From: a virus
DNA length: 33,204 bases
Reading direction: 5' to 3' (one strand)
IMG/VR virus record: IMGVR_UViG_3300009151_000227
Coordinates: 1 to 33,204 of that record
The stretch's first letter is position 1. Each line of letters begins with the position of its first letter. The notes beneath the pieces were generated by a model. That model did no database searches and was not told the DNA's origin. It saw only the letters and a program-made list of their open reading frames with translations. Positions 5,318 to 19,646 of this stretch are shown piece after piece. The translations under genes were made by a program, and so were the position numbers.

Positions 5318-5354
5318 TAACAATTTTCAAACGACAAAGCGATAGGATTAGAAC

Positions 5355-5630: not shown

Positions 5631-5639
5631 GGAAACTCG

Positions 5640-5737
5640 TTACCAATTCGTTATAACTATTTTTACCAATACTAGAATAAATGTCACATCTAGATGGTAT
5701 AATAGAACTGTAAGCACAAATGCTTGCAAACGACGAA
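5640..5737 (+). promoter_or_regulatory. Promoter module (for 5754 operon)
   Basis: TATAAT at 5698-5703; at exactly +1 a 7-bp hairpin GTAAGCA/TGCTTGC with loop CAAA (5710-5727), immediately followed by box AAACGACGAA (5728-5737). Upstream block TTACCAATTCGTTATAA begins at 5641 and recurs before several other modules. Shine-Dalgarno AAAGGAG lies after the box. Confidence 0.85.
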
Positions 5738-5753
5738 ATGAAAAGGAGTCATT

Positions 5754-6134
5754 ATGACAACTACAACTCTCTCAGCAGCAAAAATCTACGAAGAGCTAAA
5801 GCTAGCGTCATTCAAAGGACGTATGGAAGCTGAGGCTCCAACTCCAGTATCAGTAACTGATGGAATTCAAACATGGAGTATGTCTGGCGGCATTTGCGGA
5901 AATGCTGTCGTCATGCTCAGTAGTGCACGAACCAAAGTCGCGCAAGACTTCAAGAAGCTTGGACTTGCTGAACCTTGGTATGGTAAGCCAGGACTCTCAT
6001 TGAGAACTTACAGTTTCATGGGCTTTGCAAGTGGAGGACAGAGCCTTGCGTACAACGAGGCGATTGCAAAAGCGATGGTCGACCACTTGGAGTCACTTGG
6101 CATCAAAGCTTACGTTCACAGTTGGGTTGACTAA
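5754..6134 (+). CDS. Hypothetical phage protein
   Basis: 126 residues, start ATG 5754 with AAAGGAG 8 nt upstream. It has a glycine-rich middle (WSMSGGICGNAVVMLSSART) and a C-terminal helix-strand end (MVDHLESLGIKAYVHSWVD). No signal peptide or known motif. First gene of the 5698 promoter unit; its stop overlaps possible TTG starts of the next gene. Confidence 0.75.
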   Translation: MTTTTLSAAKIYEELKLASFKGRMEAEAPTPVSVTDGIQTWSMSGGICGNAVVMLSSARTKVAQDFKKLGLAEPWYGKPGLSLRTYSFMGFASGGQSLAYNEAIAKAMVDHLESLGIKAYVHSWVD

Positions 6135-6135
6135 T

Positions 6136-6471
6136 TTGAACGCGAGCATCTTCGACTACGAGCTAATTGAGGAGACTGGGGTTCGCATGAACCCCGGTGC
6201 TCCGGCTCACGCTAAATCGTGGACGCGAGACATGCACACATGCATCATCGTCGAGCGTTACGTCGATAACACGCGCCAAAAAGGTTATCGCGTTATCACG
6301 ACGACGCAAACTCCAAGTTCGACTTTTGCGTTTGGCAAACTAGTTGAAATTGGAAGCGAGAAGCACGGTCGCTTGGGAACTTATCGTGTCATCGGTATGG
6401 TGAACATATTCACGATGAAAACGCTTGGCAGAATTTTCGACAAAAGTCTTCCGCATTGGATTCTTAAATAA
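6136..6471 (+). CDS. Hypothetical protein, uncertain TTG start
   Basis: The frame is coding-like from about LNASIFDYELIEETG to the TAA at 6469-6471. No ATG exists near its beginning; TTG 6127 or TTG 6136 would place the start at the stop of the preceding gene, while ATG 6187 would give a shorter 94-residue product. No known domain. Basic C-terminus. Confidence 0.55.
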   Translation: MNASIFDYELIEETGVRMNPGAPAHAKSWTRDMHTCIIVERYVDNTRQKGYRVITTTQTPSSTFAFGKLVEIGSEKHGRLGTYRVIGMVNIFTMKTLGRIFDKSLPHWILK

Positions 6472-6496
6472 TGCGACGAATGTCACAAGCACATGG

Positions 6497-6533
6497 TATA
6501 ATGGAATCAGCAACAAAAATTAAAAACGACGAA
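6497..6533 (+). promoter_or_regulatory. Promoter module (for 6547 gene)
   Basis: TATAAT 6497-6502 preceded by TGTCAC; box AAACGACGAA 6524-6533; then AAGGAG. No clear leader hairpin. Confidence 0.75.
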
Positions 6534-6546
6534 CAAGGAGAACGAC

Positions 6547-6873
6547 ATGAAATTTAAATTACTCAAACAAGAATCAGGCAAAGCAGATGACACTGGGCTC
6601 AGAGGATATCTCGAGTCGACACGCGAGCAGCTAGTCGAGCTATTTGGAGAACCACATCCAACCGATTGCATCGACGGCAAAATCACGACTCGATGGATTA
6701 TCGAGTTTGCAGATAAAACCGTTGCGACTATCTACGACTACAAGCGATACACGCATGGAGCTCCAAAGGACGACGAGCTTTACGCGTGGCACATTGGTGG
6801 ACGTGACCACCGCGCTTGGGAAAACGTTTCTACTGCGTGGATAGATGCATATACTGTTACCATTCCGTTATAA
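6547..6873 (+). CDS. Hypothetical phage protein
   Basis: 108 residues. The pattern TREQLVELFGEP ... TRWIIEFADKTVATIYDYK ... WHIGGRD is one I recognise from small phage proteins of unknown function, often rich in Asp/Trp, in which a substrate-like strand (F-A-D-x-T-V-A-T-I-Y-D-Y) precedes a WHIGG loop. Single-gene transcription unit between two promoter modules. Confidence 0.75.
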   Translation: MKFKLLKQESGKADDTGLRGYLESTREQLVELFGEPHPTDCIDGKITTRWIIEFADKTVATIYDYKRYTHGAPKDDELYAWHIGGRDHRAWENVSTAWIDAYTVTIPL

Positions 6874-6914
6874 AGAATTTGCGCCAAATGGCAGCAAATG
6901 TCACTGGCGCAGTG

Positions 6915-6949
6915 TATAATGGAATTAGCAACAAACAATAAACGACGAA
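6915..6949 (+). promoter_or_regulatory. Promoter module (for 6960 gene)
   Basis: TATAAT 6915-6920 with TGTCAC upstream; box AAACGACGAA 6940-6949 directly followed by GGG. No leader hairpin. Confidence 0.75.
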
Positions 6950-6959
6950 GGGACATCAT

Positions 6960-7262
6960 ATGTCAGAAATCAAAATCAGTTGGAAGGCTTTCGAGCCACG
7001 TGGTGAACGCCAACACACAAGCGTTTCATTCTCGTACGAAATCAAAAATCCAAATGGAATCATGGACCTAGTGATTCTAGACATCATCTTCCGTGACACT
7101 AACGTCTACGAAGGATTCATGTGGAACATCATCGAGCCGAAGCTCTCACCGCTTCGCACTCACACCGCACTAAGCGTTGGTGACGAAATCGAAATCGATG
7201 GTCGCGTGTATCGATGCGAGAACATCGGTTGGAAGCGTCAAAATCTCGTTACCAAAATGTAA
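6960..7262 (+). CDS. Hypothetical protein
   Basis: 100 residues, mostly beta-like strands. The C-terminal SVGDEIEIDGRVYRCENIGW resembles a small beta-barrel edge, and a comparable segment (DINDIVWLHGMKYRVVETEV) occurs in the leftward gene at 26453-26740; the similarity is weak. Monocistronic between promoter modules. Confidence 0.7.
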   Translation: MSEIKISWKAFEPRGERQHTSVSFSYEIKNPNGIMDLVILDIIFRDTNVYEGFMWNIIEPKLSPLRTHTALSVGDEIEIDGRVYRCENIGWKRQNLVTKM

Positions 7263-7305
7263 TAAAAAAGTTTGCGCAAATGCGCACTTTTGCTTCAAAA
7301 CATGG

Positions 7306-7346
7306 TATAATGGAATTAGCAACAAACAATAAATACAAACGACGAA
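7306..7346 (+). promoter_or_regulatory. Promoter module (for 7364 gene)
   Basis: TATAAT 7306-7311 with TTTTGCTTCA upstream; box AAACGACGAA 7337-7346. No leader hairpin. Confidence 0.8.
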
Positions 7347-7363
7347 ACGAAAGCAGGGATGCT

Positions 7364-7606
7364 ATGGAAAAGAAATGGTGTTTACTAAAAGAGTCAGACG
7401 GCGCACGCGGCGATGCTGGCAAGAAGAAGGTCTACGAAGTTGTCGTAAAGGACAACATGTTGTTCACCTCATGGGGAATGGCAGAGAAGTCAGTTCGAGC
7501 ATCTAGCACGAAATTCTTCGCAAGCGAGAACGCGGCAGTCGCAGAAGCACTCGACAAGATTCACTCAAAGCTCGACAAGGGTTACAAACTAGCGTTCGTC
7601 GTCTAA
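7364..7606 (+). CDS. WGR-like domain protein
   Basis: 80 residues from ATG 7364, which is the start placed by the leader; the open frame extends upstream only by chance. KKVYEVVVKDNMLFTSWGMA ... SSTKFFASENAAVAEALDKI ... LDKGYKL follows the WGR pattern (Trp-Gly plus basic/helical half ending in K-x-x-K-GY), with WGM in place of WGR. WGR domains occur in PARPs and bacterial regulators and bind nucleic acids. A paralogue sits on the opposite strand at 25790-26035 (shared LLKESDG, GKKKVYE, SWGMAEK, SENAA/NENAA), in the same type of promoter cassette. Confidence 0.7.
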   Translation: MEKKWCLLKESDGARGDAGKKKVYEVVVKDNMLFTSWGMAEKSVRASSTKFFASENAAVAEALDKIHSKLDKGYKLAFVV

Positions 7607-7621
7607 CGATGAGCACCGAGC

Positions 7622-7643
7622 TGGGCACTCGTAAAAATGCCCA
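7622..7643 (+). terminator. Hairpin after the WGR-like gene, possible terminator
   Basis: TGGGCA/TGCCCA with a 10-nt loop ends the 7306 unit 15 bp after the stop. It lacks a U-tract, so termination is uncertain. Confidence 0.4.
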
Positions 7644-7719
7644 CCAAAAACAAAAAAATCTCTTACCAATTCGTTATAAATAATTTTGCAAAATGGTTAC
7701 ATTTTGCTTCAATACATGG

Positions 7720-7756
7720 TATAATGGAATTACAGCAAAAAGCTGCAAACGACGAA
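7720..7756 (+). promoter_or_regulatory. Promoter module (for 7774 operon)
   Basis: TATAAT 7720-7725 with TTTTGCTTCAA upstream; hairpin CAGC/GCTG (7733-7745); box AAACGACGAA 7747-7756; upstream block TTACCAATTCGTTATAAATA at ~7663. Confidence 0.8.
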
Positions 7757-7773
7757 ATGAAAGAAGGTTCCTT

Positions 7774-8148
7774 ATGGAAACTACAATCACAAAAATGGTA
7801 GTTGCAAAACTAGAAGCAAGCAAGTACCCACGCAAGTACGAATACAAGCAACAAGCAAGCGATTCTCCATACGCGCCATCACGAGTCTTCGTTGACTTCG
7901 GTGAAGACGTCTGGACTCACTTAGCGAACCGTCGCTCACGCGACTACAACACATTGCGACCACTCATCGCGGCGAAACTTATCGAGCAGGGAATCAAGTT
8001 CGAGAAGATAAGCTGGAACCGCTATGCAGGATGTTCAATGTGTCCATGTTCAGGTGGATTCGTTATCGTCAACGGCGATATTGGAATCGACTATTGGGCA
8101 AAAATCGAAACCGTAAATCTTGAGGCTGAGTTGGTTGCCTTCGCGTAA
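7774..8148 (+). CDS. Cys-rich hypothetical phage protein
   Basis: 124 residues from ATG 7774 with GAAGG 6-7 nt upstream. The loop YAGCSMCPCSGGFVIVNG (C-x-x-C-x-C) suggests a metal or Fe-S-like site; similar CSCxCSPGF loops occur in phage proteins of unknown function. Preceded by a helical region NTLRPLIAAKLIEQGIKFEK. First of four overlapping genes to 8845. Confidence 0.7.
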   Translation: METTITKMVVAKLEASKYPRKYEYKQQASDSPYAPSRVFVDFGEDVWTHLANRRSRDYNTLRPLIAAKLIEQGIKFEKISWNRYAGCSMCPCSGGFVIVNGDIGIDYWAKIETVNLEAELVAFA

Positions 8149-8182
8149 GCGAAGTGCAACCCACTCTCGAGAAGGAGAAATC

Positions 8183-8368
8183 ATGAGCGACAAACCAAAA
8201 ATCAAAATCACGCTAGAGCTTAGTGAAAAGCAACTTTCACTTTTGCAAGATGCAATTTACGAAGCGATGGATTCCGACAATTGGGAAGGCGACGAAAAGT
8301 TCGTTGACCAAATGTTCGGCGAAATGTACAACACAGTTTCAAAGGCTTTGAAGGAGGCTAGCAAATGA
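8183..8368 (+). CDS. Small acidic helical protein
   Basis: 61 residues, start ATG 8183 after AAGGAG. ITLELSEKQLSLLQDAIYEA suggests a small helical protein. Stop overlaps the next ATG as ATGA. Confidence 0.75.
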   Translation: MSDKPKIKITLELSEKQLSLLQDAIYEAMDSDNWEGDEKFVDQMFGEMYNTVSKALKEASK

Positions 8369-8619
8369 GTGAAAACAAACCAGCACCAATTTGTCCATCA
8401 TGCGATGGATTCATACCGAACAACGAAACTCCAGGCGCGTACATGGGCGCTATCTCACGCAAGGACAACAAGACTGAAATCTGTTCGGCTTGCGGAACTC
8501 GCGAAGCTCTACTACCAATCATCGAAGCGCAGCGCGCGCAGATGCTGGAAGACATTGCGAAGATTGACGCGGCGCTTGAAAACTTTAGCTTGAAAACTTT
8601 AGGAGCAACACATGAGTGA
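8365..8619 (+). CDS. Zinc-ribbon phage protein
   Basis: 84 residues. CPSCDGFIPNNETPGAYMGA and TEICSACGTREAL form one zinc ribbon (about residues 10-50), a recurrent small actinophage protein type of unknown role, followed by a helix with QRAQMLEDIAKID. Coupled with both neighbours by overlap. Confidence 0.75.
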   Translation: MSENKPAPICPSCDGFIPNNETPGAYMGAISRKDNKTEICSACGTREALLPIIEAQRAQMLEDIAKIDAALENFSLKTLGATHE

Positions 8620-8845
8620 CAACCTAAAGTACGTCGATGTCAGCATCGTGTCCATCTACAACTACAAAGACAACGTGGACGAAGTCACTGTCGCGATTGG
8701 CGACGGCAAGACAAAGTTCGATGACGACTTTGACTTCGATGCTCGAGTCTACTTTTACTTTGACGACCAAGCTCAGTTCGACAGAGCGCGAGTCGAGTCG
8801 CTCGAAGAAGTTGGATTCAAAATCACCAAGATTCTAGACGAATAA
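8612..8845 (+). CDS. Hypothetical acidic protein
   Basis: 77 residues, rich in Asp (DDDFDFDARVYFYFDD), probably beta-sheet; unknown function. Overlaps the previous gene by 8 bp. Last gene of the 7720 operon. Confidence 0.7.
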   Translation: MSDNLKYVDVSIVSIYNYKDNVDEVTVAIGDGKTKFDDDFDFDARVYFYFDDQAQFDRARVESLEEVGFKITKILDE

Positions 8846-8848
8846 GCT

Positions 8849-8951
8849 GTTACCAATTCGTTATAAATAATTTCGCGAATTGGCGACAAACGCTTCAAAA
8901 ACAAGGTATAATGGAATCAAGCAGCAAACAACAAGTTGCGAAAACGACGAA
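8849..8951 (+). promoter_or_regulatory. Promoter module (for 8963 operon)
   Basis: TATAAT 8907-8912; upstream block TTACCAATTCGTTATAAATA at 8850; box AAACGACGAA 8942-8951 next to AAGGA. A weak stem GCAA/TTGC lies in the leader. Confidence 0.8.
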
Positions 8952-8962
8952 AGGACTTCACT

Positions 8963-9286
8963 ATGAAGACTAACCAAGAATACAACGAAAAGTACCAGAC
9001 CATCACATTGCTAACAGCAATCGCAGCAGGAGAATACTGGTCAGTAAACGACATCAATGACATGCGCGACTTGAAGAAGTCGAACGTCTCGAACCTTGAG
9101 ATTGCTCAGTTGCTTGGTCGCAGCTACTACTCAATCTGCACGAAGCTAAGTCTCGTAGGACTAGATGGTGACGTCTCAGTGATGTTCGGTAACCGACGCA
9201 ACAACACCAAGAAGCCGAACGATTACGGAGTTGCTTGCTCGACTTGCTTCTTGTATCACACAGCGATTCAGGTCGATTGTGCATAA
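8963..9286 (+). CDS. Hypothetical protein with SANT/HTH-like helix pair and Cys motif
   Basis: 107 residues. MRDLKKSNVSNLEIAQLLGR followed by SYYSICTKLSLVGL looks like a Myb/SANT- or HTH-type tri-helix. The C-terminal CSTCFLYH ... DCA may bind metal. Start ATG 8963 with AAGGAC 8 nt upstream. Possible DNA-binding regulator; weak call. Confidence 0.6.
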   Translation: MKTNQEYNEKYQTITLLTAIAAGEYWSVNDINDMRDLKKSNVSNLEIAQLLGRSYYSICTKLSLVGLDGDVSVMFGNRRNNTKKPNDYGVACSTCFLYHTAIQVDCA

Positions 9287-9311
9287 GTTCAGTAAAGGAG
9301 CACGAGCTGCA

Positions 9312-9527
9312 GTGGCGTTAGTCACCTCAGTTCGTTCCAACTCCACAGAAGACGAGTTGGTAAATGCGCAGCAGCTTTCTGCATTGATGCGAGACATCAT
9401 CAAAGAGTCAAGTCCAAAAGAGCTTGCGGCGACACTTTACACACTCACCATCTTGGCAGCGAATCCGCTTGAAGGCGACGAGTTCAAAAAGTTTGCTCTC
9501 GAGCTATCGACAACTCAGCTAGATTAG
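9312..9527 (+). CDS. Hypothetical protein, uncertain GTG start
   Basis: 71 residues from GTG 9312 (AAAGGAG 11 nt upstream) or 82 from GTG 9279, which overlaps the previous stop. DELVNAQQLSALMRDIIKES ... LATLYTLTILAANP is helical. No known domain. Confidence 0.55.
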   Translation: MALVTSVRSNSTEDELVNAQQLSALMRDIIKESSPKELAATLYTLTILAANPLEGDEFKKFALELSTTQLD

Positions 9528-9596
9528 CAGAAATGTCGTTATAGATTCGTTATAAAGAATTTGCTAGAAACTGTATCAAATGCTCCAAAAACAAGG

Positions 9597-9632
9597 TATA
9601 ATGGAAATACAACAAAAGTTGTAAACGACGAA
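9597..9632 (+). promoter_or_regulatory. Promoter module (for 9652 operon)
   Basis: TATAAT 9597-9602; hairpin TACAAC-AAAA-GTTGTA (9608-9623); box AAACGACGAA 9623-9632. Confidence 0.85.
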
Positions 9633-9651
9633 ATGAAGGACGTGATTGCTT

Positions 9652-9879
9652 ATGGCAGATAACACAAACAAGTTACCAGAATCAGTAACTCTAAAACTAG
9701 AGTACACACTCACACTCGAAGAACTAAACGAGTACATTGGAATCCCGCTCGACGAAATCACCGTTGAAGTGATGATTGAAAAGTTGCGTGAGTATGCGCA
9801 TGAAGCATGCGATTACAATGCCATCGAACTTGCAAAAGTCTACGATGACTCTGGCGCTATCGTCGCAGGAGACGAATAG
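9652..9879 (+). CDS. Hypothetical acidic protein
   Basis: 75 residues from ATG 9652; TTG 9646 is in frame and nearer to the Shine-Dalgarno GAAGGA, so the true start may be two codons earlier. LTLEELNEYIGIPLDEITVE resembles the short helix-loop start of many small phage proteins. Unknown function. Confidence 0.65.
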   Translation: MADNTNKLPESVTLKLEYTLTLEELNEYIGIPLDEITVEVMIEKLREYAHEACDYNAIELAKVYDDSGAIVAGDE

Positions 9880-9882
9880 ACC

Positions 9883-10197
9883 ATGTTAGAGCGCATAGAC
9901 GAAAAGCATGTAGTATTGCGAATCGACTTCAAGCAAGAAGTCGAGTTCGCGATACTCAAGCGAGAAGACGGCAAGTTCGACTTGACTTGGACAGACTACA
10001 TCATTAATGTTTGGACCGAGACATACGAAAATCTTTCGACCGCGATGCTACGAGCCGCAGCGCTCGTGAAGTGCGGCGAAACAAATTGGGAGGGTTTCTT
10101 CCAAGCTTCACCGGAAGAGTTCACGAAAGTCGCGAACACTTTCTTTGACACAACAGTAACAAAACCAATATCGAAGTCTCGAGAGGAGACCAACTAA
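9883..10197 (+). CDS. Hypothetical protein
   Basis: 104 residues, starts 4 nt after the previous stop with GGAG ~13 nt upstream. FKQEVEFAILKREDGKFDLT ... TETYENLSTAMLRAAALVKC looks like a small alpha/beta fold. Stop overlaps the next start as TAATG. Confidence 0.7.
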   Translation: MLERIDEKHVVLRIDFKQEVEFAILKREDGKFDLTWTDYIINVWTETYENLSTAMLRAAALVKCGETNWEGFFQASPEEFTKVANTFFDTTVTKPISKSREETN

Positions 10198-10439
10198 TGA
10201 GCACAAAACGATACGCGCGCTACGCGCTGAACTACCTAGCAACAGCTCACATCTTTCTTGCGGCAGCTTGCTGGCGCATGAACGGTATTTACAACGAACG
10301 AATCTACATGGCCGACGACATGGACCAAACTCGATTCATAGCAAATGGCTACGCGCTAATTGGTGCCATCATGCTAGTGAGCGGTTTGTTCATCTTGCTA
10401 GCAGTGAAGATGATGCAAAAGGGCAAACACGCGGCATAA
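10197..10439 (+). CDS. Small membrane protein
   Basis: 80 residues with a hydrophobic helix at about 10-28 and a clear transmembrane helix at about 50-72 (IGAIMLVSGLFILLAVKMMQ), basic C-terminus. Unknown role. Overlaps the preceding stop. Confidence 0.7.
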   Translation: MSTKRYARYALNYLATAHIFLAAACWRMNGIYNERIYMADDMDQTRFIANGYALIGAIMLVSGLFILLAVKMMQKGKHAA

Positions 10440-10512
10440 ATGTCGTTACCAATTCGTTATAAACTTTTTCAAAAAAGTTTGCGAAAATGCAACAAATGCT
10501 CCAAAAACATGG

Positions 10513-10552
10513 TATAATAGAACTATCAAGCAAACGTTTGATAAACGACGAA
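10513..10552 (+). promoter_or_regulatory. Promoter module (for 10590 gene)
   Basis: TATAAT 10513-10518; 7-bp hairpin ATCAAGC-AAAC-GTTTGAT (10525-10542, one G.U pair) begins at the expected +1; box AAACGACGAA 10543-10552 abuts it. Upstream block TTACCAATTCGTTATAAACT at ~10445. Confidence 0.9.
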
Positions 10553-11038: not shown

Positions 11039-11081
11039 TATAATGGTTACATGAGGCAAAAGCCTCAGACAAAACGACGAA
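11039..11081 (+). promoter_or_regulatory. Promoter module (for 11092 operon)
   Basis: TATAAT 11039-11044; hairpin TGAGGC-AAAA-GCCTCA (11052-11067); box AAACGACGAA 11072-11081. Half-site TGAATTGTACTTTTGA at ~11011 sits over the -35 region. Confidence 0.85.
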
Positions 11082-11091: not shown

Positions 11092-11559
11092 ATGGAAGAT
11101 ACGACGACCAAGGTTTACGGAAAGGCTCTTTACTTAGAGCTTGAGCAGCCAGGCAATGCAAGCGTGTTGCAGCTGCTACTAACACCAGACATGAAGTCAC
11201 CTAGCGGTTCACATGTGGCATTGACACTGTACAGACGCAGACTGACTCCATCGAAGCCACGAGCAACTTGGAATGCGTACTCAACGTACGACAAGCCAAA
11301 GCTCGATGTTGATGGCAACTTTGAAATCATCAACTACAAATCAGATGCCATCAAGTTGGCAAAAGAGCGACTAGTCTTTGGCGAGAAGCTGTTCACTCAG
11401 ATAATCGACCACGGCTACAAGCTTCGCAAGGCGCCAATCGTAGTAGAGATTGGTGTCGATGACTTGGATGACATCTGCGCACACAAGACTCCGTACAAGA
11501 TTCTTGCACGAGTCACCAGAACCCGAAAGGTGCTCGGCTTCGCCGACGCACTAATCTAA
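11092..11559 (+). CDS. Hypothetical protein in the MoxR/VWA operon
   Basis: 155 residues, no motif recognised; mixed alpha/beta (LYLELEQPGNASVLQLLL, ITNYKSDAIK-type segments, VEIGVDDLDDI). It is co-transcribed with the MoxR-type ATPase gene 24 bp downstream, so it may be a substrate or adaptor of that ATPase; this is inference. Confidence 0.65.
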   Translation: MEDTTTKVYGKALYLELEQPGNASVLQLLLTPDMKSPSGSHVALTLYRRRLTPSKPRATWNAYSTYDKPKLDVDGNFEIINYKSDAIKLAKERLVFGEKLFTQIIDHGYKLRKAPIVVEIGVDDLDDICAHKTPYKILARVTRTRKVLGFADALI

Positions 11560-11583
11560 GAATAACGACGAAACGAGGACATT

Positions 11584-12567
11584 ATGGAATCAGTAGAAAA
11601 TCTAAACAAGTTGTACGATGGTCTAAGCGAAGCCATCTACGCGACAGTTGTACAGACACAACACGAAGACTCAGCGAAAGCGATAGAGGCTTACATGTCG
11701 ATGACTGGCATGCTAACCAAAAAGTCAGCTAGCAAGAAGGCATTCGTAACTGTGGTTGAAGCAGAGACACTCGAAGGACTCTCGAAGTACACTCGTCCTA
11801 ACGGCGACATGTACTTTGCACGAAAGTGGGGAGAGCACAACGATGTTGAAGTTGTTCGCAAGGCTCATGTCGCAGGACAGTTTGTACTTCTGTACGGAGC
11901 TCCAGGAACTGGTAAGACTGCGGTCTTCGAGGCAGCGTTCGGCAACGACCTCTACACAGTGCTAGGTACAGGCGACACTGAAGTTTCTGACTTCGTTGGT
12001 GGCTACGTACAAAACACTGACGGTGGATTCAGCTGGGTTGATGGACCTCTCATCAGAGCTGCGGAAGAAGGCAAGCCGCTACTCATCGACGAGATTGGTA
12101 TCATCGACCCGAAGGTCTTGACAGTTGTGTACGGTCTAATGGATGGTCGCCGTGAACTTGCGGTAACTGCAAATCCAGAGCGTGGCACAGTCAAGGCGAA
12201 GGATGGATTCTTCGTGGTCGCAGCGACTAACCCGAATGCTCCAGGAGTCAACTTGAGTGAGGCGTTGTTGTCTCGATTCAAGATTCACAGTGAGATGACC
12301 ACTGACTGGAACCTAGCTAGGAAACTTGGTGTACCTACCAACATGGTTGGTGCGGCACAGAACCTTGCGAAGAAGCAGCAGACTGGTGAAGTCTCATGGG
12401 CTCCGCAAATGCGTGAGCTGCTTGCGTTCAAGGAGTTGGCGACAACTTTTGGAACTAAGTGGGCAGTTCAGAACCTTCTAGCTCAGGCTCCAGAGATGGA
12501 CCGTCCGGTTGTTGCCGATACGTTCACTCGAGTCTACGGTGAAGAGATTCGTCCAGCTAAAATCTAA
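11584..12567 (+). CDS. MoxR/CbbQ-type AAA+ ATPase
   Basis: 327 residues. Walker A GAPGTGKT (105-112), Walker B LLIDE (166-170), sensor-1 ATNPN (N216) and LLSRF (228-232) with arginine-finger R231 place it in the MoxR/CbbQ/GvpN AAA+ group. These act with a VWA-domain partner to remodel protein complexes or load metals; the partner gene follows at 12772. A box-like TAACGACGAA lies at 11563-11572 without a promoter, so this internal gene could also be targeted by the loop RNA encoded just downstream. N-terminal 80 residues are not recognised. Confidence 0.85.
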   Translation: MESVENLNKLYDGLSEAIYATVVQTQHEDSAKAIEAYMSMTGMLTKKSASKKAFVTVVEAETLEGLSKYTRPNGDMYFARKWGEHNDVEVVRKAHVAGQFVLLYGAPGTGKTAVFEAAFGNDLYTVLGTGDTEVSDFVGGYVQNTDGGFSWVDGPLIRAAEEGKPLLIDEIGIIDPKVLTVVYGLMDGRRELAVTANPERGTVKAKDGFFVVAATNPNAPGVNLSEALLSRFKIHSEMTTDWNLARKLGVPTNMVGAAQNLAKKQQTGEVSWAPQMRELLAFKELATTFGTKWAVQNLLAQAPEMDRPVVADTFTRVYGEEIRPAKI

Positions 12568-12569: not shown

Positions 12570-12700
12570 GAAACTCCGAGACGCTTTCTTCGTCGTTTCC
12601 GTCTCGGTGGCAGGATGCTTTCTTCGTCGTTTGCATCCTGCACGAGAGGGAGACTGTTGAGACCACTCCGGTCTCCCTCTCACAACTTAAAAGTTTTTTA
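12570..12700 (+). ncRNA. Candidate small RNA with two identical loops complementary to the leader box
   Basis: Three consecutive hairpins lie between the ATPase stop and the next promoter. Hairpin 1: stem CCGAGACG/CGTCTCGG (12576-12607). Hairpin 2: stem GCAGGATGC/GCATCCTGC (12610-12641). Both display the loop TTTCTTCGTCGTTT, the second as a 14-nt loop and the first inside a 16-nt loop, while the stems differ. The loop contains TTCGTCGTTT, the exact complement of leader box AAACGACGAA. Hairpin 3: GAGAGGGAGAC/GTCTCCCTCTC (11 bp, 12644-12681), a probable terminator, followed by AACTT/AAGTT then T's. The RNA could be processed from the ATPase transcript; the TAAAAT at 12558-12563 is a possible own -10, with no convincing -35. 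It is not translated in any frame that I can support. Confidence 0.75.
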
Positions 12701-12704: not shown

Positions 12705-12759
12705 TGAAGTGTACTTTACTTCAAAACTGTGTATAATGGAATTAGAGACAAACGACAAA
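12705..12759 (+). promoter_or_regulatory. Promoter module (for 12772 gene)
   Basis: Operator-like TGAAGTGTACTTTACTTCA at 12705-12723; TATAAT 12732-12737; leader box AAACGACAAA (12750-12759), the variant with A in place of G; then AGGAG. No hairpin. Confidence 0.85.
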
Positions 12760-14602: not shown

Positions 14603-14637
14603 TATAATGATTACAGATGGAAAATCTAAATGACGAA
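14603..14637 (+). promoter_or_regulatory. Promoter module (for 14648 operon)
   Basis: TATAAT 14603-14608; small hairpin AGAT-GGAAA-ATCT (14615-14627); box variant AAATGACGAA (14628-14637), which still pairs with the loop RNA through one G.U; then AAGGAA. Confidence 0.75.
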
Positions 14638-14647
14638 AGGAACCGCA

Positions 14648-15046
14648 ATGGACGAAAACAAGATTCAATGTTCGCGATGCGAAGAAACAAAACTAGCTGC
14701 TGAGTTCAGCAAAAACGAACCAGGCGAAATCGCTTGGTGTAACGACTGTGAAGGTGTTTGCAGAAGGTGCGGCACTACAGACTGCAGCGAGGAAGAGCTT
14801 GAGCACGGTCTCTGCCTTATTTGCTGCATGGACCTAGACGAGCAGGCCGAAGAAGAGGAAAGTCCTCTATCTAAGTTAGCCGATGAAATCGTTGCGCAGT
14901 TCACGCCATTTGCGTTCCTATGCAAGTGCAAGGGTGAAAACGAGTCTTGCGCCGAAGCAATGTCTAGACCTACTTTGGTAGTTCAGGCAGACACCGCGGC
15001 AAGGATAGCAGACTTCATCCGTGAGAAGGCGAGAGCGACTTCATAA
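14648..15046 (+). CDS. Zinc-ribbon protein
   Basis: 132 residues from ATG 14648. CSRCEETKLAAEFSKNE ... WCNDCEGVCRRCGTTDC ... CLICC forms a cluster of zinc knuckles; the first part matches the KxCxxC...F zinc ribbon that opens some phage HNH nucleases, but no HNH motif is present. Further cysteines near 98-107 (CKCKGENESC). Unknown function. Overlaps the next gene as TAATG. Confidence 0.75.
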   Translation: MDENKIQCSRCEETKLAAEFSKNEPGEIAWCNDCEGVCRRCGTTDCSEEELEHGLCLICCMDLDEQAEEEESPLSKLADEIVAQFTPFAFLCKCKGENESCAEAMSRPTLVVQADTAARIADFIREKARATS

Positions 15047-15231
15047 TGACTAATCAAGAAATCATACTCGTGGTAGGCATTGCCACTTTAGTGCTAGGCT
15101 TTATTGCTGGACGGAAATCACAACCTAGCTTCACAGTCGACAACCAGGCTACAGACTACGTTATCGACATCGAAGTCCATCCAGCAAAGCACAAGCTGGT
15201 AATCAAACGCATCACTCCAAAAAATAAATAA
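15046..15231 (+). CDS. Small N-terminally anchored membrane protein
   Basis: 61 residues: an N-terminal transmembrane helix (IILVVGIATLVLGFIAG) and a short hydrophilic tail. Translationally coupled to the upstream gene. Confidence 0.65.
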   Translation: MTNQEIILVVGIATLVLGFIAGRKSQPSFTVDNQATDYVIDIEVHPAKHKLVIKRITPKNK

Positions 15232-15244
15232 ATAAAGTTTCAAA

Positions 15245-15301
15245 TGAAGTGTACATTTGCTTCATTATGCTGTATAATAAAACCAAGAAGTAAACGACAA
15301 A
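15245..15301 (+). promoter_or_regulatory. Promoter module with full operator-like palindrome (for 15321 operon)
   Basis: The 20-bp site TGAAGTGTACATTTGCTTCA (15245-15264) covers the -35 region; TATAAT 15273-15278; box variant AAACGACAAA (15292-15301); AGGAG further down. No leader hairpin. Confidence 0.85.
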
Positions 15302-15320
15302 ACGACAACTAGGAGACCAA

Positions 15321-15683
15321 ATGAGTCTAGAACAAATAGAACTAACTGCACCAGCATATGCAAACGCACCTTACGGTCCATGGACGCTAGCGCTTCGCTC
15401 AGTCGAAATCCGCGAAGGTCAACCAGCATGGAGAATCCAGTCAGAATCTCCAAACTACAAGTACAACGACATCTGTGTGATGACCTACGTAAAGTATGAC
15501 GAGGCTCTCAAAAGGTTCAACGAGCTTGCGGCTAGCATCGACCTAAGCGTCACAACAGAAACTGAGCGCAAGCGCCTTTGCTCAACTTGCGACAAGGAAC
15601 TAAGCGGAGACCCGGCCTTCCCACAAACTCTACCTCACCGAGCTTTCGACATCGCTTATTGCGGCTGTAAAGGCTGGGACTAG
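15321..15683 (+). CDS. Hypothetical protein with C-terminal zinc knuckles
   Basis: 120 residues. The middle (SPNYKYNDICVMTYVKYDEA) is unrecognised; the end has CSTC ... CGCKG. Ends in TAGTG, overlapping a GTG start. Confidence 0.7.
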   Translation: MSLEQIELTAPAYANAPYGPWTLALRSVEIREGQPAWRIQSESPNYKYNDICVMTYVKYDEALKRFNELAASIDLSVTTETERKRLCSTCDKELSGDPAFPQTLPHRAFDIAYCGCKGWD

Positions 15684-15916
15684 TGAGCAAAAAGTTTGCG
15701 GTCTCACGGCAAATCTCGGTGAACGGAAATCCACCGATAAAAATCACCTACCGCTACCAGGTGTCAGCAGAAACTGCTGAGCACGCGTGCGGCATCATAG
15801 CAGGCGATTGGAGCATCGCCCTGTCTAAGTTCACCAACTATCCAGAAAACCTATCGTCAACAGACGTCGTCAAGTTTATTGGCGAGTATACAGCAGAGGA
15901 AGTATCAAATGACTAA
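15683..15916 (+). CDS. Hypothetical protein, GTG start
   Basis: 77 residues, start GTG 15683 overlapping the preceding stop. IKITYRYQVSAETAEHACGI and LSSTDVVKFIGEYTAEEV read as a small alpha/beta protein. Stop overlaps the next gene by 8 bp. Confidence 0.65.
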   Translation: MSKKFAVSRQISVNGNPPIKITYRYQVSAETAEHACGIIAGDWSIALSKFTNYPENLSSTDVVKFIGEYTAEEVSND

Positions 15917-16259
15917 AGAAGAACTACTAGCAAAAATCCAGGAAATCTGTCCAGAGGCTTTCATTAGCGATGCAGAAAACGGTGCCGATGAAATCTTCAT
16001 CGCAACTGGCTTCGTAGAACCTGAAGAAGGTGCGGAACTAATCACCATCGATGAGCACACTGAAGAAGCTCGCGTGTTCACACAACCAATCGTCCATTAC
16101 TTCTCTGATGATGGAAACTACGGCATGGCAGATGGGTTAGTTATCATCGAAACCTCTAGCTGGAACGACAGCGACTGGGTAGAGATAGAAGAAACTTCAG
16201 ACGAGAACCGTCCAAAAGCTGCTGAAATCATCAGCAACAAATACAAGAAAAAGAAATAA
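15909..16259 (+). CDS. Hypothetical acidic protein
   Basis: 116 residues from ATG 15909 with GAGGA 8 nt upstream. Very acidic; FSDDGNYGMADGLVIIETS; lysine-rich last five residues. Unknown function. Confidence 0.7.
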   Translation: MTKEELLAKIQEICPEAFISDAENGADEIFIATGFVEPEEGAELITIDEHTEEARVFTQPIVHYFSDDGNYGMADGLVIIETSSWNDSDWVEIEETSDENRPKAAEIISNKYKKKK

Positions 16260-16269
16260 GGAGAGAACC

Positions 16270-16614
16270 ATGTCACAGTTCGCGGCAATCATGTCACCTG
16301 AAGGTGCGGTACAAGTAATACCTTTCGTTGACAACCAACTAAAAACCATGCAGACTGCGGTTGGAGGTTACATTGAACCAATCAGACTAGCACCAGACCT
16401 CATCATGTGGACGAATGAAGATGGCAAGATGACCAAACTTCCATTCAATCAGGCTGCAACATCTATCTTCGTGAAGTATTGCGGAGGTACAGACTTCATC
16501 GTTGGTCCAGTTGTATTTACGGGAGGCATCGACTCCAGTGGAGACACGCGGGGAATCAGTGAAGTGCAGATTCAACAGTTAAAGACTTATGCGGAAATGT
16601 CAAAAATAAATTAA
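16270..16614 (+). CDS. DUF3846 domain protein
   Basis: 114 residues. VGGYIEPIRLAPDLIMWTNE, KLPFNQAAT, and DFIVGPVVFTGGIDSSGDTR match the DUF3846 pattern (VGGYIE...MWVNEDGK...LP.N..AT...GP.VF), a family common in phages and plasmids. Family position in the sequence is full-length. Function of the family is unknown to me. Last gene of the 15321 operon. Confidence 0.8.
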   Translation: MSQFAAIMSPEGAVQVIPFVDNQLKTMQTAVGGYIEPIRLAPDLIMWTNEDGKMTKLPFNQAATSIFVKYCGGTDFIVGPVVFTGGIDSSGDTRGISEVQIQQLKTYAEMSKIN

Positions 16615-16637
16615 ATCTTTCCAAAAAGTTATCAAAA

Positions 16638-16700
16638 TGAGTGTACATTTGCTTCAGTACGCTGTATAATAGAACCATGGAGAAATCCAGAAACGACAAA
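16638..16700 (+). promoter_or_regulatory. Promoter module (for 16715 operon)
   Basis: Operator-like TGAGTGTACATTTGCTTCA at 16638-16656; TATAAT 16665-16670; hairpin TGGA-GAAA-TCCA (16678-16689) with a GNRA loop; box variant AAACGACAAA 16691-16700. Confidence 0.85.
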
Positions 16701-16714
16701 ATGAAGGAGTCAGC

Positions 16715-17023
16715 ATGACTGATAAAGAAAACAACAAGATGAAGAACATCACAATCACCACGGCGACAATCGACTTCGGCGACTGGAAGCTGGAAGCATC
16801 AGGTCAAATCGACGAGTTCTACGATTGGTACTTCACGATGAACTTCAAGGGAGTCATCTCAAGCAGCGACTGGAAAGAGCGTCACTACTTCAGCGACCAG
16901 GAAGAACTTGAAGAGTACATGTGGGAAGAAGTTCAGCGATTGAACAAGAAGTACTCTTCTTGTGTATTCACTGAAACCACCGAAGAAGTCGAGAACGAAG
17001 ACTACGAAGAAGACGAGGAGTAG
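16715..17023 (+). CDS. Hypothetical acidic protein
   Basis: 102 residues. N-terminal strands (IDFGDWKLEASGQIDEFYDW) then an acidic helical half with EELEEYMWEEVQRLNKKYSS and a polyacidic tail. Unknown. Confidence 0.7.
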   Translation: MTDKENNKMKNITITTATIDFGDWKLEASGQIDEFYDWYFTMNFKGVISSSDWKERHYFSDQEELEEYMWEEVQRLNKKYSSCVFTETTEEVENEDYEEDEE

Positions 17024-17025
17024 AC

Positions 17026-17256
17026 ATGAGTGAAAAGAAAATCTACAACTTCAGGTTCGACGTGGTCGAATCGTGGAAGGCTTCATTCGAAGCCTCATCC
17101 GATGAAGAAGCCATGCGGCTCTTCAAGGAACTCACCGAAGGCGACATCAACGGTGAAGACCTCCCTGAGTACTTCGAGAAGAACAGCGGTATCGACACCG
17201 AATACTACGTTCTCGAGGATGCGGCAGGAAAAGTAATTGAAGTCGAGAACGACTAA
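17026..17256 (+). CDS. Hypothetical acidic protein
   Basis: 76 residues starting 3 nt after the previous stop. NFRFDVVESWKASFEASSDE resembles the strand-helix start of many small phage proteins. Unknown. Confidence 0.7.
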   Translation: MSEKKIYNFRFDVVESWKASFEASSDEEAMRLFKELTEGDINGEDLPEYFEKNSGIDTEYYVLEDAAGKVIEVEND

Positions 17257-17304
17257 ACTTACAAAAAGTTTCAAAAAACGATGTACTTCTGAAGCAGAAT
17301 GAAG

Positions 17305-17341
17305 TATAATTGAATTACTAGGAAAACCTAGTAACGACGAA
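17305..17341 (+). promoter_or_regulatory. Promoter module (for 17352 operon)
   Basis: TATAAT 17305-17310; the longest leader hairpin, TTACTAGG-AAAA-CCTAGTAA (17315-17334); box TAACGACGAA (17332-17341) begins within its end. Confidence 0.85.
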
Positions 17342-17351
17342 AAGAGGAAAT

Positions 17352-17579
17352 ATGGACAAGTACACTTTGAGACGATTCTTTGTAAGCATCATCACTGTAC
17401 CGCTCTCTTACGCAGGCTATCTGTTTATCTGGATAATCCTGATTGCGTTCGGTGCAGAAGGACGATTCGTAGACTTTCTACAAAATCTTCCAACCATCGG
17501 CACGGTATGGGTTCTAGGCTGGACTTTTGGTCCAGACATTGAACGCTATATCGAACGCCGCAGTGCTAAGCGTGACTAA
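17352..17579 (+). CDS. Small membrane protein, holin candidate
   Basis: 75 residues, transmembrane helices at about 9-33 and 48-60, basic ends. It stands in an operon with another small membrane protein and runs toward the NlpC/P60 lysin at 18190, so a holin-type role is possible; this is inference. Confidence 0.6.
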   Translation: MDKYTLRRFFVSIITVPLSYAGYLFIWIILIAFGAEGRFVDFLQNLPTIGTVWVLGWTFGPDIERYIERRSAKRD

Positions 17580-17802
17580 GCGCAAGTCGCTTTTTGAACG
17601 CGGCTACCGTAAAGCCAAGGAAGGAATGTTCGCAGCGACCGAACTAGCAAATCGCGAAGGCTTTCTTGGCTTTATTGGTAGGGCAGCTTACCTAACGATT
17701 TGGGCAGTGATGCTCGTAATCATCTGCACCATCTGGCTGCTCACACTGGGCGGCAAATTAATCAAACAAGAAGAACAAACAACAAGGAGTCAAAATGACT
17801 GA
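17572..17802 (+). CDS. Small membrane protein
   Basis: 76 residues from GTG 17572, overlapping the preceding stop. A transmembrane helix lies at about 38-62 (AVMLVIICTIWLLTLGGKLI). Alternative holin or accessory lysis protein. Overlaps the next start by 8 bp. Confidence 0.6.
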   Translation: MTKRKSLFERGYRKAKEGMFAATELANREGFLGFIGRAAYLTIWAVMLVIICTIWLLTLGGKLIKQEEQTTRSQND

Positions 17803-18094
17803 AATCAAAACCACTGAACCTGCGGCTAAAATCAAAAAGGTTCCAGTAAAAAATCGCACCAGAGTTGAAACAGTTCCACGCCTAGCGCCAGGAATCGAAA
17901 TTCCTGCGGGCTATGTTCCAGCGTACTACCGCAAGCGTCACGGCCTATTGGTCCTTCGAACAACTGAAACAAAAGACTATTTAGTCTTCAGCATCAAGAC
18001 CGGTGAGTTCGTTTCGGTTCGCAACACGCGAGAGGCTTCGGACCTAATGGCAGCAATCGCAAAGGGCCTAAAGAGCCTTTCTACCGCGGCTTAG
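17795..18094 (+). CDS. Hypothetical basic protein
   Basis: 99 residues, start ATG 17795 with AAGGAG upstream. Lys-rich N-terminus and a beta-like core (VLRTTETKDYLVFSIKTGEF). Unknown. Confidence 0.65.
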   Translation: MTEIKTTEPAAKIKKVPVKNRTRVETVPRLAPGIEIPAGYVPAYYRKRHGLLVLRTTETKDYLVFSIKTGEFVSVRNTREASDLMAAIAKGLKSLSTAA

Positions 18095-18106
18095 TGATAA
18101 AGTAGT

Positions 18107-18135
18107 CTAATCCTGAGGTCGATAATCAGGATTAG
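18107..18135 (+). terminator. Stem-loop between 17795 and 18190 genes
   Basis: CTAATCCTGA/TCAGGATTAG, 10-bp perfect stem with a 9-nt loop, no U-tract. Like the stem at 10953 it could be a terminator of the actinobacterial type or an mRNA-processing stem. Confidence 0.6.
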
Positions 18136-18189
18136 GGAGACCGGACAATAAACAGCTAAGTACTAACGCAAGGAAAGGTAGGCTGCTAA

Positions 18190-18846
18190 ATGAAATGGTT
18201 AATAACAACAGCGCTCGTATCGGTAGTTGTTTTTGGAGGAAACTATCCAGAGACGCCAGCAGGAGCGGATACCGTAACACCTAAAAATGTTAAGGTAGTT
18301 GCAACTACAATCGAAAAGCCAATGCACTTCGAAGGAATCAAACTGGGAAAAACTTTCCAGCCGATGACTTTCTTAGAAGCTGAAGCTCACAGGAAGCAAA
18401 CGCTTCTGGAGAGACTTGCGGTTGCGCAGGCTAAACGAGTGCAAAACACATTGGACATGCGGAAGACAATCAAAACCCTTAGGAAAACTGCAAATCATAC
18501 TTGGTATGTTTACAGCGGTGTTAGTCCTCAGGGTTGGGATTGTTCTGGGCTTGTGTACTGGACGTACCAGCAATTAGGTATCACGCTGAAACATTCAGCT
18601 ACGGCGCAATCGCACACAGGAACACGTACCGCAAATCCAGAACCCGGAGACATCGTAGCGTTTCACTACGGAAAGAGTTACTACTCGTTCCACAGTGGAA
18701 TCTATTTAGGCAACGGGATGATGATTCATTCATACAGAAAAGGTATGTTGACCGTCATTCAATCTGTTGCGGATGTTTCCCAGGAAAACGGAAATGCCAC
18801 GGTTACATACAACCGGATTATCGACCAGGACCCGTCACTTCCGTAG
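18190..18846 (+). CDS. Secreted NlpC/P60-type lysin
   Basis: 218 residues. Signal-peptide-like N-terminus (WLITTALVSVVVFGGNYP, cleavage likely near residue 26). A helical segment (~60-98) precedes the NlpC/P60 domain: WDCSGLVYWTYQQLGI with catalytic Cys118, PGDIVAFH, HSGIYLG with His168, and MIHS with His180 as third polar residue. These enzymes cut peptidoglycan peptides. Export by a signal sequence would let it act without, or in addition to, a holin. Confidence 0.85.
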   Translation: MKWLITTALVSVVVFGGNYPETPAGADTVTPKNVKVVATTIEKPMHFEGIKLGKTFQPMTFLEAEAHRKQTLLERLAVAQAKRVQNTLDMRKTIKTLRKTANHTWYVYSGVSPQGWDCSGLVYWTYQQLGITLKHSATAQSHTGTRTANPEPGDIVAFHYGKSYYSFHSGIYLGNGMMIHSYRKGMLTVIQSVADVSQENGNATVTYNRIIDQDPSLP

Positions 18847-18934
18847 ACAAAGTCGAGTGCCGTCAGCTGCGAAAGTAGTTGGCGGCATTCTTCTTTACGC
18901 GGCGCAGAAACTTTTTCATAAATCTTTTGGAAAT

Positions 18935-18997
18935 GTGTACTTTTGCTTCAGCAATGTGCTATAATAGTATTACCAGGAAAATCTGGCAAACGACAAA
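18935..18997 (+). promoter_or_regulatory. Promoter module (for 19008 gene)
   Basis: Half palindrome GTGTACTTTTGCTTCA at 18935-18950; -10 TATAAT 18960-18965; hairpin CCAGG-AAAA-TCTGG (18973-18986); box variant AAACGACAAA 18988-18997. Confidence 0.85.
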
Positions 18998-19007
18998 AGG
19001 AGTTCAC

Positions 19008-19268
19008 ATGAACCTAACAGTAAAAGACATTGCAACAGTAGTAGTTACCAGCACAAACATTCACACCGGTGCGGAAGTAAAACCAGTTTACGAAGCTTAC
19101 GGCTACGAAAGGTTCCAAGGGTTCGTAACTTGGCACCAGGAAAACGCCCGTCCAGACTGGATTACAAAGGTAGAAGGCTTCGGCTACGACTGGAAAGCAG
19201 AAGGTGGAACAAAGTCTTACCTTCTAGCTAGCGAGTTCATTGGGGTAAAAGTTCCAGCTCTAATCTAG
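19008..19268 (+). CDS. Hypothetical protein
   Basis: 86 residues from ATG 19008, the start set by the leader box. AYGYERFQGFVTWHQENARP and GFGYDWKAEGGTKSY suggest a small beta protein. The upstream extension of the frame covers the promoter and is not expected to be translated. Confidence 0.7.
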   Translation: MNLTVKDIATVVVTSTNIHTGAEVKPVYEAYGYERFQGFVTWHQENARPDWITKVEGFGYDWKAEGGTKSYLLASEFIGVKVPALI

Positions 19269-19333
19269 TTGCATACAAAACCTCCAGAGGCGAGATAGTA
19301 TTTTTCTATCAAACCTCTGGAGGAAATGCAATG
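19269..19333 (+). promoter_or_regulatory. Hairpin that buries the Shine-Dalgarno and start codon of the 19331 gene
   Basis: Nested pairing: TTGCAT (19269-19274) with ATGCAA (19326-19331); CCTCCAGAGG (19281-19290) with CCTCTGGAGG (19314-19323), a perfect 10-bp stem; GATAG (19294-19298) with CTATC (19306-19310). The Shine-Dalgarno GGAGG is in the inner strand and the A of the ATG start closes the outer stem. Looks like a translational switch or thermometer; a plain terminator is less likely because there is no U-tract and the ribosome site is embedded. Confidence 0.75.
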
Positions 19334-19549
19334 ACACCGAAGCTAAAGGCGCGAGAACTCGTGTTGACCGTTCTCAATGTAGAAAACTCTCAAGGTTGGA
19401 ACATCAGAGGATTCACGACTCTTCAGCTCAAAGAACTCTATGATGCGATTGAACTGGCGGACTTTGGACGCGGCTCTAAAGAACTGAACAAGATACGGAT
19501 ACGAGTAATGGGAGAATTACTGATTCGCGGTGAACTTCAGAATACTTAG
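19331..19549 (+). CDS. Hypothetical protein under hairpin control
   Basis: 72 residues. FTTLQLKELYDAIELADFGR looks helical; no known domain. Its ribosome site is enclosed in the stem upstream, so translation should be low unless the stem opens. Confidence 0.7.
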   Translation: MTPKLKARELVLTVLNVENSQGWNIRGFTTLQLKELYDAIELADFGRGSKELNKIRIRVMGELLIRGELQNT

Positions 19550-19585
19550 AATGTTACCGAAATCTTATAAAAATCTTCCACAAAT

Positions 19586-19646
19586 AGTGTACATTTGCTT
19601 CATTACACTGTATAATAATTATGTGGTAAAAACCACAAACGACGAA
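19586..19646 (+). promoter_or_regulatory. Promoter module (for 19657 operon)
   Basis: AGTGTACATTTGCTTCA (19586-19602); TATAAT 19611-19616; hairpin TGTGGT-AAAA-ACCACA (19622-19637); box AAACGACGAA 19637-19646. Confidence 0.85.

Follow-up and report, generated by a model that had tools for sequence, protein, structure and literature searches.

The window, that is, the whole stretch of DNA analysed here, is a 33-kb virus record whose ATPase protein is 100% identical to that of a 127-kb contig (G001). Its phage is one of a family of large phages of actinobacteria, in which the nearest named record is Actinomycetia phage DSL-LC01 (65% identity for the ATPase and 75% for the portal protein), Microbacterium phages such as Pumpernickel coming next by both proteins; a DNA comparison of window positions 9000-21000 found no close named phage. 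The gene of main interest encodes an AAA ATPase that we read as MoxR-type. It is preceded by a gene that matches nothing in Pfam or PHROG at E<=0.001, a homologue of which is present in 58 of the 61 records of the comparison set defined below, and the two are presumed to share one transcript because the gap between them is 24 nt. Downstream of the ATPase gene and its hairpin element lies a VWA-domain gene (a match under Pfam's cut-off) with a TATAAT ahead of it. The ATPase and VWA genes together (11584-14541) resemble a MoxR/CoxE-type pair, and the DSL-LC01 record names the VWA counterpart 'cobalamin biosynthesis protein', perhaps from distant similarity only. The features of the window that concern us are these:

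5329..10552, + strand: leader boxes starting at 5329 (1 mismatch), 5728, 6524, 6940, 7337, 7747, 8942, 9623 and 10543
11072..11081, + strand: AAACGACGAA box of the leader ahead of the pre-ATPase gene, matching loop A over 11 nt
11092..11559, + strand: gene just before the ATPase, 155 aa, ending 24 nt upstream of it
11563..11572, + strand: TAACGACGAA box of the ATPase leader, matching loop A over 9 nt
11584..12567, + strand: AAA ATPase gene (AAA_5), its 3' end bearing the hairpin element
12576..12607, + strand: hairpin A, 8-bp stem CCGAGACG/CGTCTCGG (12576-12583/12600-12607), 100% complementary
12584..12599, + strand: loop of hairpin A, CTTTCTTCGTCGTTTC, antisense to the leader box
12610..12641, + strand: hairpin B, 9-bp stem GCAGGATGC/GCATCCTGC (12610-12618/12633-12641), 100% complementary
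12619..12632, + strand: loop of hairpin B, TTTCTTCGTCGTTT
12644..12681, + strand: hairpin C, strong, 11-13 bp, with a T run at 12694-12699
12750..12759, + strand: AAACGACAAA box of the VWA gene's leader, preceded by a TATAAT at 12733-12738
14628..19646, + strand: leader boxes starting at 14628, 15292, 16691, 17332 and 18988 (1 mismatch each) and at 19637 (exact)
21664..21694, + strand: second, weaker candidate, 3' hairpin ggaaggcgg-GGGAAAATCTCCT, loop antisense to AGGAGAT
25051..26766, - strand: leader boxes at 25051-25060, 25521-25530, 26052-26061 and 26757-26766

The hairpin element and the leader box

The element begins directly past the ATPase stop, with hairpins A and B starting 8 and 42 nt after the gene. 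The folding energy of the 141-nt segment is -58.1 kcal/mol, which corresponds to a z of -6.4 relative to 200 shuffles. The original prediction of two neighbouring perfect hairpins sharing one loop was borne out, the 14-nt core TTTCTTCGTCGTTT being common to both. Its further claim, that the stems differ while the loops are identical, holds in part: the stems do differ, and they are unrelated in relatives, but three to four inner stem bases are alike. Since the two copies, these bases included, are 88% alike across 24 nt, the window taken alone is compatible with plain duplication; simple DNA duplication of the hairpins was nevertheless rejected as an explanation, since relatives carry the same loop on unrelated stems. 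The TTTC at the 5' end of the loop has no counterpart in the box that would explain it.

A third, strong hairpin had been proposed as terminator. Hairpin C is indeed there, but the T run begins 12 nt past its stem and a terminator scan, which admits loops of 3-8 nt only, made no call on it. Many relatives have a strong hairpin at this place, as judged by eye, and hairpin C is probably the 3' end or a processing block, though not a textbook 3' end. As to where the RNA starts, TATAAT is absent from the + strand between 11600 and 12600, where four one-mismatch hexamers were found, two of them (12558 and 12563) over the ATPase stop. A consensus promoter scan of 10900-12900 picked out one promoter-like site, no better than chance and 1.2 kb upstream; the scan is weak evidence, since the TATAAT ahead of the VWA gene escaped it as well. 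An independent sRNA gene was therefore rejected for want of a clear promoter at the element, although a weak one at 12558/12563 is possible. Of the two origins first envisaged, a 3'UTR RNA made from the end of the ATPase unit is thus likelier than an RNA with its own promoter.

The complement of the loop, the box AAACGACGAA, had been reported in at least 14 leaders on both strands, and it is found exactly in 14 (10 on the + strand and 4 on the - strand) and with one mismatch in 8 more. With up to one mismatch there are 25 sites, as compared to 4.8 +/- 2.3 in shuffles, none of 100 of which reaches 25. Besides the 14 in leaders, the 16 exact sites comprise the 2 within the hairpins on the opposite strand, and all but one of the 9 one-mismatch sites (the exception is 7604-) lie ahead of a start codon. 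Almost all called leaders with a TATAAT (18/19) have the box with up to two mismatches, and 8 more have it without TATAAT. When hairpins were scanned for loop complementarity to leader-enriched 7-mers, A and B tied for top among 92 in the window and among 244 in G001. The proposed regulon is supported to the extent that the window's lineage has a group of leaders sharing the box. In G001, 21 leaders have the box with up to one mismatch (147 called genes), every one within 80-110 kb; we infer that the rest of the contig holds mainly late genes. In these 21 leaders the box is predicted to be unpaired with a value of 0.81, as against 0.62 for the remainder of the same RNAs. Predicted loop:leader duplexes average -14.8 kcal/mol at box leaders and -7.9 for the 125 other leaders, a gap that is expected because the box leaders were so chosen.

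Two observations on the window stand apart. By eye, many leaders have a small hairpin of varying sequence (such as CAGC-aaaa-GCTG or TCAAGC-acgc-GCTTGA) between promoter and box, for example at 7700-7756, 11045-11081 and 25500-25560. As for the second candidate hairpin, which is also listed in G001 and G002, the AGGAGAT ribosome-site stretch that its loop faces is present in 4 called window leaders.

Loops and leaders in related phages

An ATPase alignment led to 265 related stretches, 80 of which were fetched; with the addition of L183, L201 and L074 they made 83 loci, which collapsed to 61 unlike records. For gene calling in these relatives we used a home-made model based on hexamers, to which a Shine-Dalgarno term was added. 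In a test of the own operon that was based on position only, ATPase-end loops were picked by structure alone. A perfect ATPase-end hairpin passed the filter in 49 of the 61 records and was absent in 12. In 27 of the 49 the loop matches both the ATPase leader and that of the preceding gene over at least 6 nt. The same holds for 5.4% of the 1182 other pairs of adjacent genes taken from these records, and for 13.3% when a loop is set against the ATPase pair of another record. At 7 nt or more the figures are 15/49 versus 2.2% and 4.9%, respectively. The mean match to the own operon is 5.55, against 4.13 +/- 0.14 (0/20,000 permutations), and among 16 mutually unlike representatives it is 5.25 against 4.12 +/- 0.23 (0/50,000 permutations), with a double match in 6/16 versus 7.5% off diagonal. 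The 6-nt match in both leaders was not reached by 22 of the 49 records. In the window's lineage, this complementarity of a 3' RNA to its own leaders amounts, by sequence, to 11 and 9 nt.

The box closely follows TATAAT in the window, in the 18/19 leaders mentioned above, as it might if a phage protein recognised it in DNA and the hairpins repeated that site, whether as DNA or as RNA. We consider this very improbable because the ATPase-end loop in the sense orientation matches both leaders in 0/49 records, the matches sit between strong stems, and it is the ribosome site itself that is matched in other lineages. Even less credible is an artefact of composition, by which pyrimidine-rich, terminator-like loops would be expected to complement purine-rich leaders. 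Loops do match other records' leaders more than their own coding stretches (0.0165 versus 0.0107 for 7-mers), but own leaders score higher still (0.0267), and purine-rich loops such as TAGTAGGTTG and TTGGGTG match CAACCTAC and CACCCAA leaders. When records with anti-Shine-Dalgarno-like loops were removed, 19/35 still had a double match (0/20,000 permutations); anti-Shine-Dalgarno pairing by composition is thus contradicted by the own-operon test and its reduced sets.

A ranking by pairing strength points to the same two leaders. For 62 ATPase-end loops, the top tenth of partners includes the ATPase leader in 37% of cases and the leader of the preceding gene in 39%, whereas that of the next gene downstream is included in 10%. 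Other 3' hairpins (n=183, offset 0) have no preference for the leader of their host gene (mean percentile 0.51), and the preference for the host operon is limited to the ATPase element. This qualifies the original prediction as to targets: boxed leaders stand as candidates in the window's lineage, but the preferred partners across the family are the leaders of the ATPase and of the gene before it.

In distant members the ATPase-end loop is different and the leader box is often different with it. Among the matched records, loop and both boxes co-vary through AAACGACGAA, CAACCTAC, GAACGGAA, AAGGACGA, CCACTAC, AGGACACCC, CACCCAA, GGAAGGAG and GGACAG. Loop TAGTAGGTTG pairs by sequence with CAACCTAC in both leaders, TTTTCTTCGTCGTTTC matches AAACGACGAA leaders, TTCCGTTC matches GAACGGAA leaders, TTTCTCGTCCTTT matches AAGGACGA leaders, TCGATGGGTGTCCT matches AGGACACCC(A) leaders, and GCGTAGTGGG matches the leader stretches CCACTACG and CCCACTAC. 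In these example pairs the matched stretch falls between about -35 and -3 relative to the start codon, either on the ribosome site or immediately ahead of it. A wider set of 224 hairpins from 60 records, on the transcribed strand within 150 nt past a gene and selected by structure alone, has antisense 7-mers matching 297 leaders, as against 79 for sense 7-mers and a coding expectation of 75.7; at p<1e-4 there are 23 antisense hairpins (17/61 records) versus 2 sense. The idea that the pairing of the loop is under selection is supported by this lineage-specific covariation, which is found in the antisense orientation only.

The pattern is uneven across records. A first covariation test, in which loop 6-mers of 22 ATPase-end hairpins were compared with all own leaders, had a mixed outcome: ratios were high in four records (13.1 in G004, 12.6 in G009, 11.3 in G022, 5.1 in G006), 3.0 in the window, 2.8 in G020, 1.3 to 3.5 in twelve others, and at most 1.0 in G005, G021, G024 and Pumpernickel. 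The loops of Cece, Pumpernickel and A3Wally (TCTGTCGTTGG, TTGTCGTT and CTTCGTCGTTGG) look alike, and their leaders are hardly enriched for a loop match (1.4, 1.0 and 1.3); Zooman and three Gordonia phages examined have no such ATPase-end loop. Another set of 27 records, which overlaps the first, was sorted by motif classes drawn post hoc from the 7-mer scan. It gave 18 record-class combinations with an intergenic hairpin loop of the class, and in 16 of them own leaders bear the motif at least three times (in A3Wally, counted among the 16, in merely 3/320 leaders). The exceptions are G006 (AAAGGGG) and G007 (GGAGACC), with one such leader each. Conversely, no loop passed the filter in G011, with 11/87 AAAGGGG-type leaders, in DSL-LC01, with 14/121 ACGACGA-type leaders and a loop longer than the filter allows, or in G004, with 11/101 GGACAG leaders and too short a stem. 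A permutation over all leaders with seven ATPase clusters (60 records) was significant for 7-mers (17/20,000) and not for 6-mers (2032/20,000). Nor is the relation between loop and leader one to one, because the AACGACGAA-type leader is widespread across lineages (a 6-mer of it is in 252/872 leaders of 30 unclassed records) and is also found in lineages whose ATPase loop points at a different stretch, the CACCCA lying just upstream of it.

The loop itself has been found on other stems. A search of IMG/VR for the 14-mer TTTCTTCGTCGTTT returned at least 119 stretches, and 80 loci among the matches listed were read. A stem of at least 9 bp, a cut chosen after the table was seen, is present in three of these (L183, L201 and L225), which have 4, 4 and 7 same-strand boxes and all encode the ATPase; the other listed loci, among them seven with stems of 7-8 bp, have at most one. 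The loop hairpin is placed after the ATPase in L183, and in L201 and L225 after a different gene, whose G001 relative sits near 95.5 kb. In DSL-LC01 the loop sits at 41.3 kb on a stem that is different again, behind an annotated endonuclease gene. This hairpin ranked fourth of 543 in the loop-versus-leader 7-mer scan; the top hits in DSL-LC01 and Microbacterium phages are other hairpins, some antisense to promoter-like words such as CTTGACA. Finally, L322 (ATPase 66% identical) has tandem hairpins 9 and 47 nt after the ATPase, on stems unrelated to those of the window; the first loop keeps the core and the second is a shorter variant, and the leaders matched at the box mostly read AAACGACA, so that one mismatch remains. 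The relatives in which the original prediction could have failed gave no refutation: the loop recurs on unrelated stems, and distant loops often change with the leader boxes.

Other hairpins and repeats were seen in these relatives. Away from the ATPase, neighbouring hairpins with C-rich loops (such as TTATCCCCCTTT) are antisense to own AAAGGGG leaders (G024 116304-116339, G019 16024-16059, G023 13022-13056, G021 26310, G005 134204 and 136340); in most cases a T-rich tail, or another hairpin carrying a T tract, comes next, and these hairpins might possibly be free-standing anti-leader RNAs with terminators. In L343, hairpins at 11004 and 16680 match adjacent parts of one leader type, the loop/leader pairs being TAGTAGGTTG (CAACCTA) and TATCACCCCTTTCGTC (GACGAAAGG). 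T-rich words (GTATTTATTTTTT and GTATCCACTTTTTT variants) are repeated 5-10 times per 11-kb locus in L005, L020, L023, L026 and L031, partly just past 3' hairpins.

A possible feedback RNA

The hairpins, their complementarity to the leaders, its covariation by lineage and its strand specificity are read from the DNA itself, and the accessibility of the box is predicted. They define what appears to be the conserved core, a hairpin at the end of an operon that is antisense to the leaders of that operon. From them we infer transcription, processing, pairing in the cell, trans action, repression and early timing. The reading that we favour, with a probability of about 0.63, is that a 3'UTR RNA covers ribosome sites, resulting in feedback on the operon and in trans repression of boxed genes. 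According to this scenario, the 3'UTR of the presumed two-gene ATPase transcript would bear hairpins whose unpaired loops are antisense to the box of both leaders. As the transcript accumulates, the 3' RNA would become available, either within the mRNA or cut out of it, ended by hairpin C, and would pair with both leaders over 9-11 bp in the window's phage. Pairing would cover the ribosome site and lower translation of the operon, which would constitute a negative feedback. In the window's lineage, where the box is in about 20 leaders on both strands, mostly with a TATAAT promoter, the same loops could repress this block of genes in trans as infection proceeds. Repression would be the natural outcome, since pairing falls at the ribosome site, by analogy with what is reported for OppZ/CarZ (PMC7398697), icaR (PMC3868564), NfeR1 (PMC10746234) and B11 (PMC10470900). 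The element probably acted ancestrally as a feedback on its own operon, because the leaders of the ATPase and of the preceding gene are the preferred partners family-wide.

Within the presumed operon transcript, loop/leader complementarity would fit action in cis or in trans alike. The 3' loop might thus pair solely with the leaders of the same mRNA molecule, controlling its translation or decay, and the other boxed leaders would then be copies of a good leader cassette and no targets. That the two own-operon leaders are the best partners (top tenth for 39% and 37% of loops, versus 10% for the next gene) is in accord with this, and icaR of Staphylococcus aureus offers a tested precedent of 3'UTR-5'UTR pairing (PMC3868564). 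However, the loop recurs after other genes in L201, L225 and DSL-LC01, and hairpins away from the ATPase match many leaders in some records (up to 15/38, in L343), which makes action in cis alone unlikely. Trans action is also suggested by the boxes on both strands, taken with the presence of the loop after other genes. A role in activation or protection, in which pairing would open an inhibitory leader structure or shield the 5' end and so raise translation or stability, might account for the small hairpin just ahead of the box in many window leaders. We regard it as improbable, because the prediction already has the box unpaired (0.81) and because, with the box adjoining or overlapping the ribosome site, pairing there would obstruct the ribosome.

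Known systems and significance

The original prediction named no described phage system of this exact form. Related bacterial systems are in print, so that the mechanism has precedents; they are compared here as far as the cited excerpts describe them. Among the closest are OppZ and CarZ of Vibrio cholerae, RNAs derived from operon 3' ends that inhibit translation by pairing with the transcript they come from, in a negative feedback (PMC7398697). The phage element likewise lies at the 3' end of the presumed operon whose leaders it matches. OppZ and CarZ differ in being bacterial, experimentally shown and RNase E-dependent (PMC7398697), while the element described here is phage-borne, with a lineage-specific seed in the loops of perfect hairpins and the same box in two leaders of the operon. 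In S. aureus icaR, a short 3'UTR motif (UCCCCUG) base-pairs around the ribosome site of its own mRNA, facing the Shine-Dalgarno itself, and is said to act in trans or in cis (PMC3868564). By comparison, the phage box is often outside the Shine-Dalgarno, and one or two loops face many leaders in the window's lineage.

Multi-hairpin anti-leader RNAs are known as well. NfeR1/alpha-r14 ('cuckoo') of alphaproteobacteria, a nitrogen-stress-induced sRNA, has three hairpins with the same unpaired anti-leader motif on highly different stems, redundant motifs that silence mRNAs at the translation initiation region (PMC10746234). Its motif CCUCCUCCC is described there as ultraconserved (PMC10746234), whereas that of the phages varies by lineage and lies at the end of an operon. 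The window has identical loops on unlike stems in two hairpins, with some inner stem bases alike, but these loops read UUUCUUCGUCGUUU and do not contain CCUCCUCCC. The mycobacterial sRNA B11/6C has two C-rich loops able to pair with a G tract in the 5'UTR, and repression persisted when either loop alone was mutated (PMC10470900). The actinobacterial setting is similar, and some phage relatives have loops such as TTACCCCCCTTC, but the loop of the window is not C-rich. Rfam gave no 6C hit for the window at E<=5, for its element alone and that of G024 at E<=10, or for seven related stretches at gathering score. No other family matched the window element at E<=5, the element alone gave only hits far below cut-off at E<=10, and the related stretches gave nothing but a tRNA at gathering score. 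For LhrC, with a gathering score of 110 bits, the G024 element reached 21.4 bits and the window element gave no hit. By these tests, of motif for alpha-r14 in the window and of Rfam models for 6C and LhrC in the window, the G024 element and, for 6C, seven related stretches, the element is not a member of any of the three families. In cluster K mycobacteriophages, many genes have a conserved box, the start-associated sequence, next to their start codon (PMC3203893); its sequence differs, and the excerpt of that description mentions no complementary hairpin loop (PMC3203893).

The working principle thus appears, by analogy with 3'UTR autoregulators and multi-hairpin anti-leader sRNAs, to be known already. 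No description of such a phage anti-leader hairpin system was found in the open-licence PMC literature, and what is new within the literature searched is the phage setting, one 3' loop matching two leaders of its operon, and seeds private to a lineage. If the favoured scenario is true, these phages would encode an RNA-only feedback circuit that can be seen from comparative sequence alone, in the covariation of a 3' hairpin loop and at least two 5' leaders. It would also supply naturally occurring loop/box pairs that differ in specificity, and an entry point to gene timing in large actinobacterial phages, kin of culturable Microbacterium phages. A general screen suggests itself, for operon-end hairpin loops that are antisense to leader motifs. 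A bolder proposal, which we put forward tentatively and hold to be doubtful as it stands, is that of a private-key RNA code, in which the operon-end loops of each lineage recognise a box common to that phage's own leaders. If it were true, loop and boxes would co-diversify and each phage would shut or tune only its own early mRNAs, those of its own operon at first and a genome-wide regulon later, without a protein regulator, and would be insulated from related phages in the same host.
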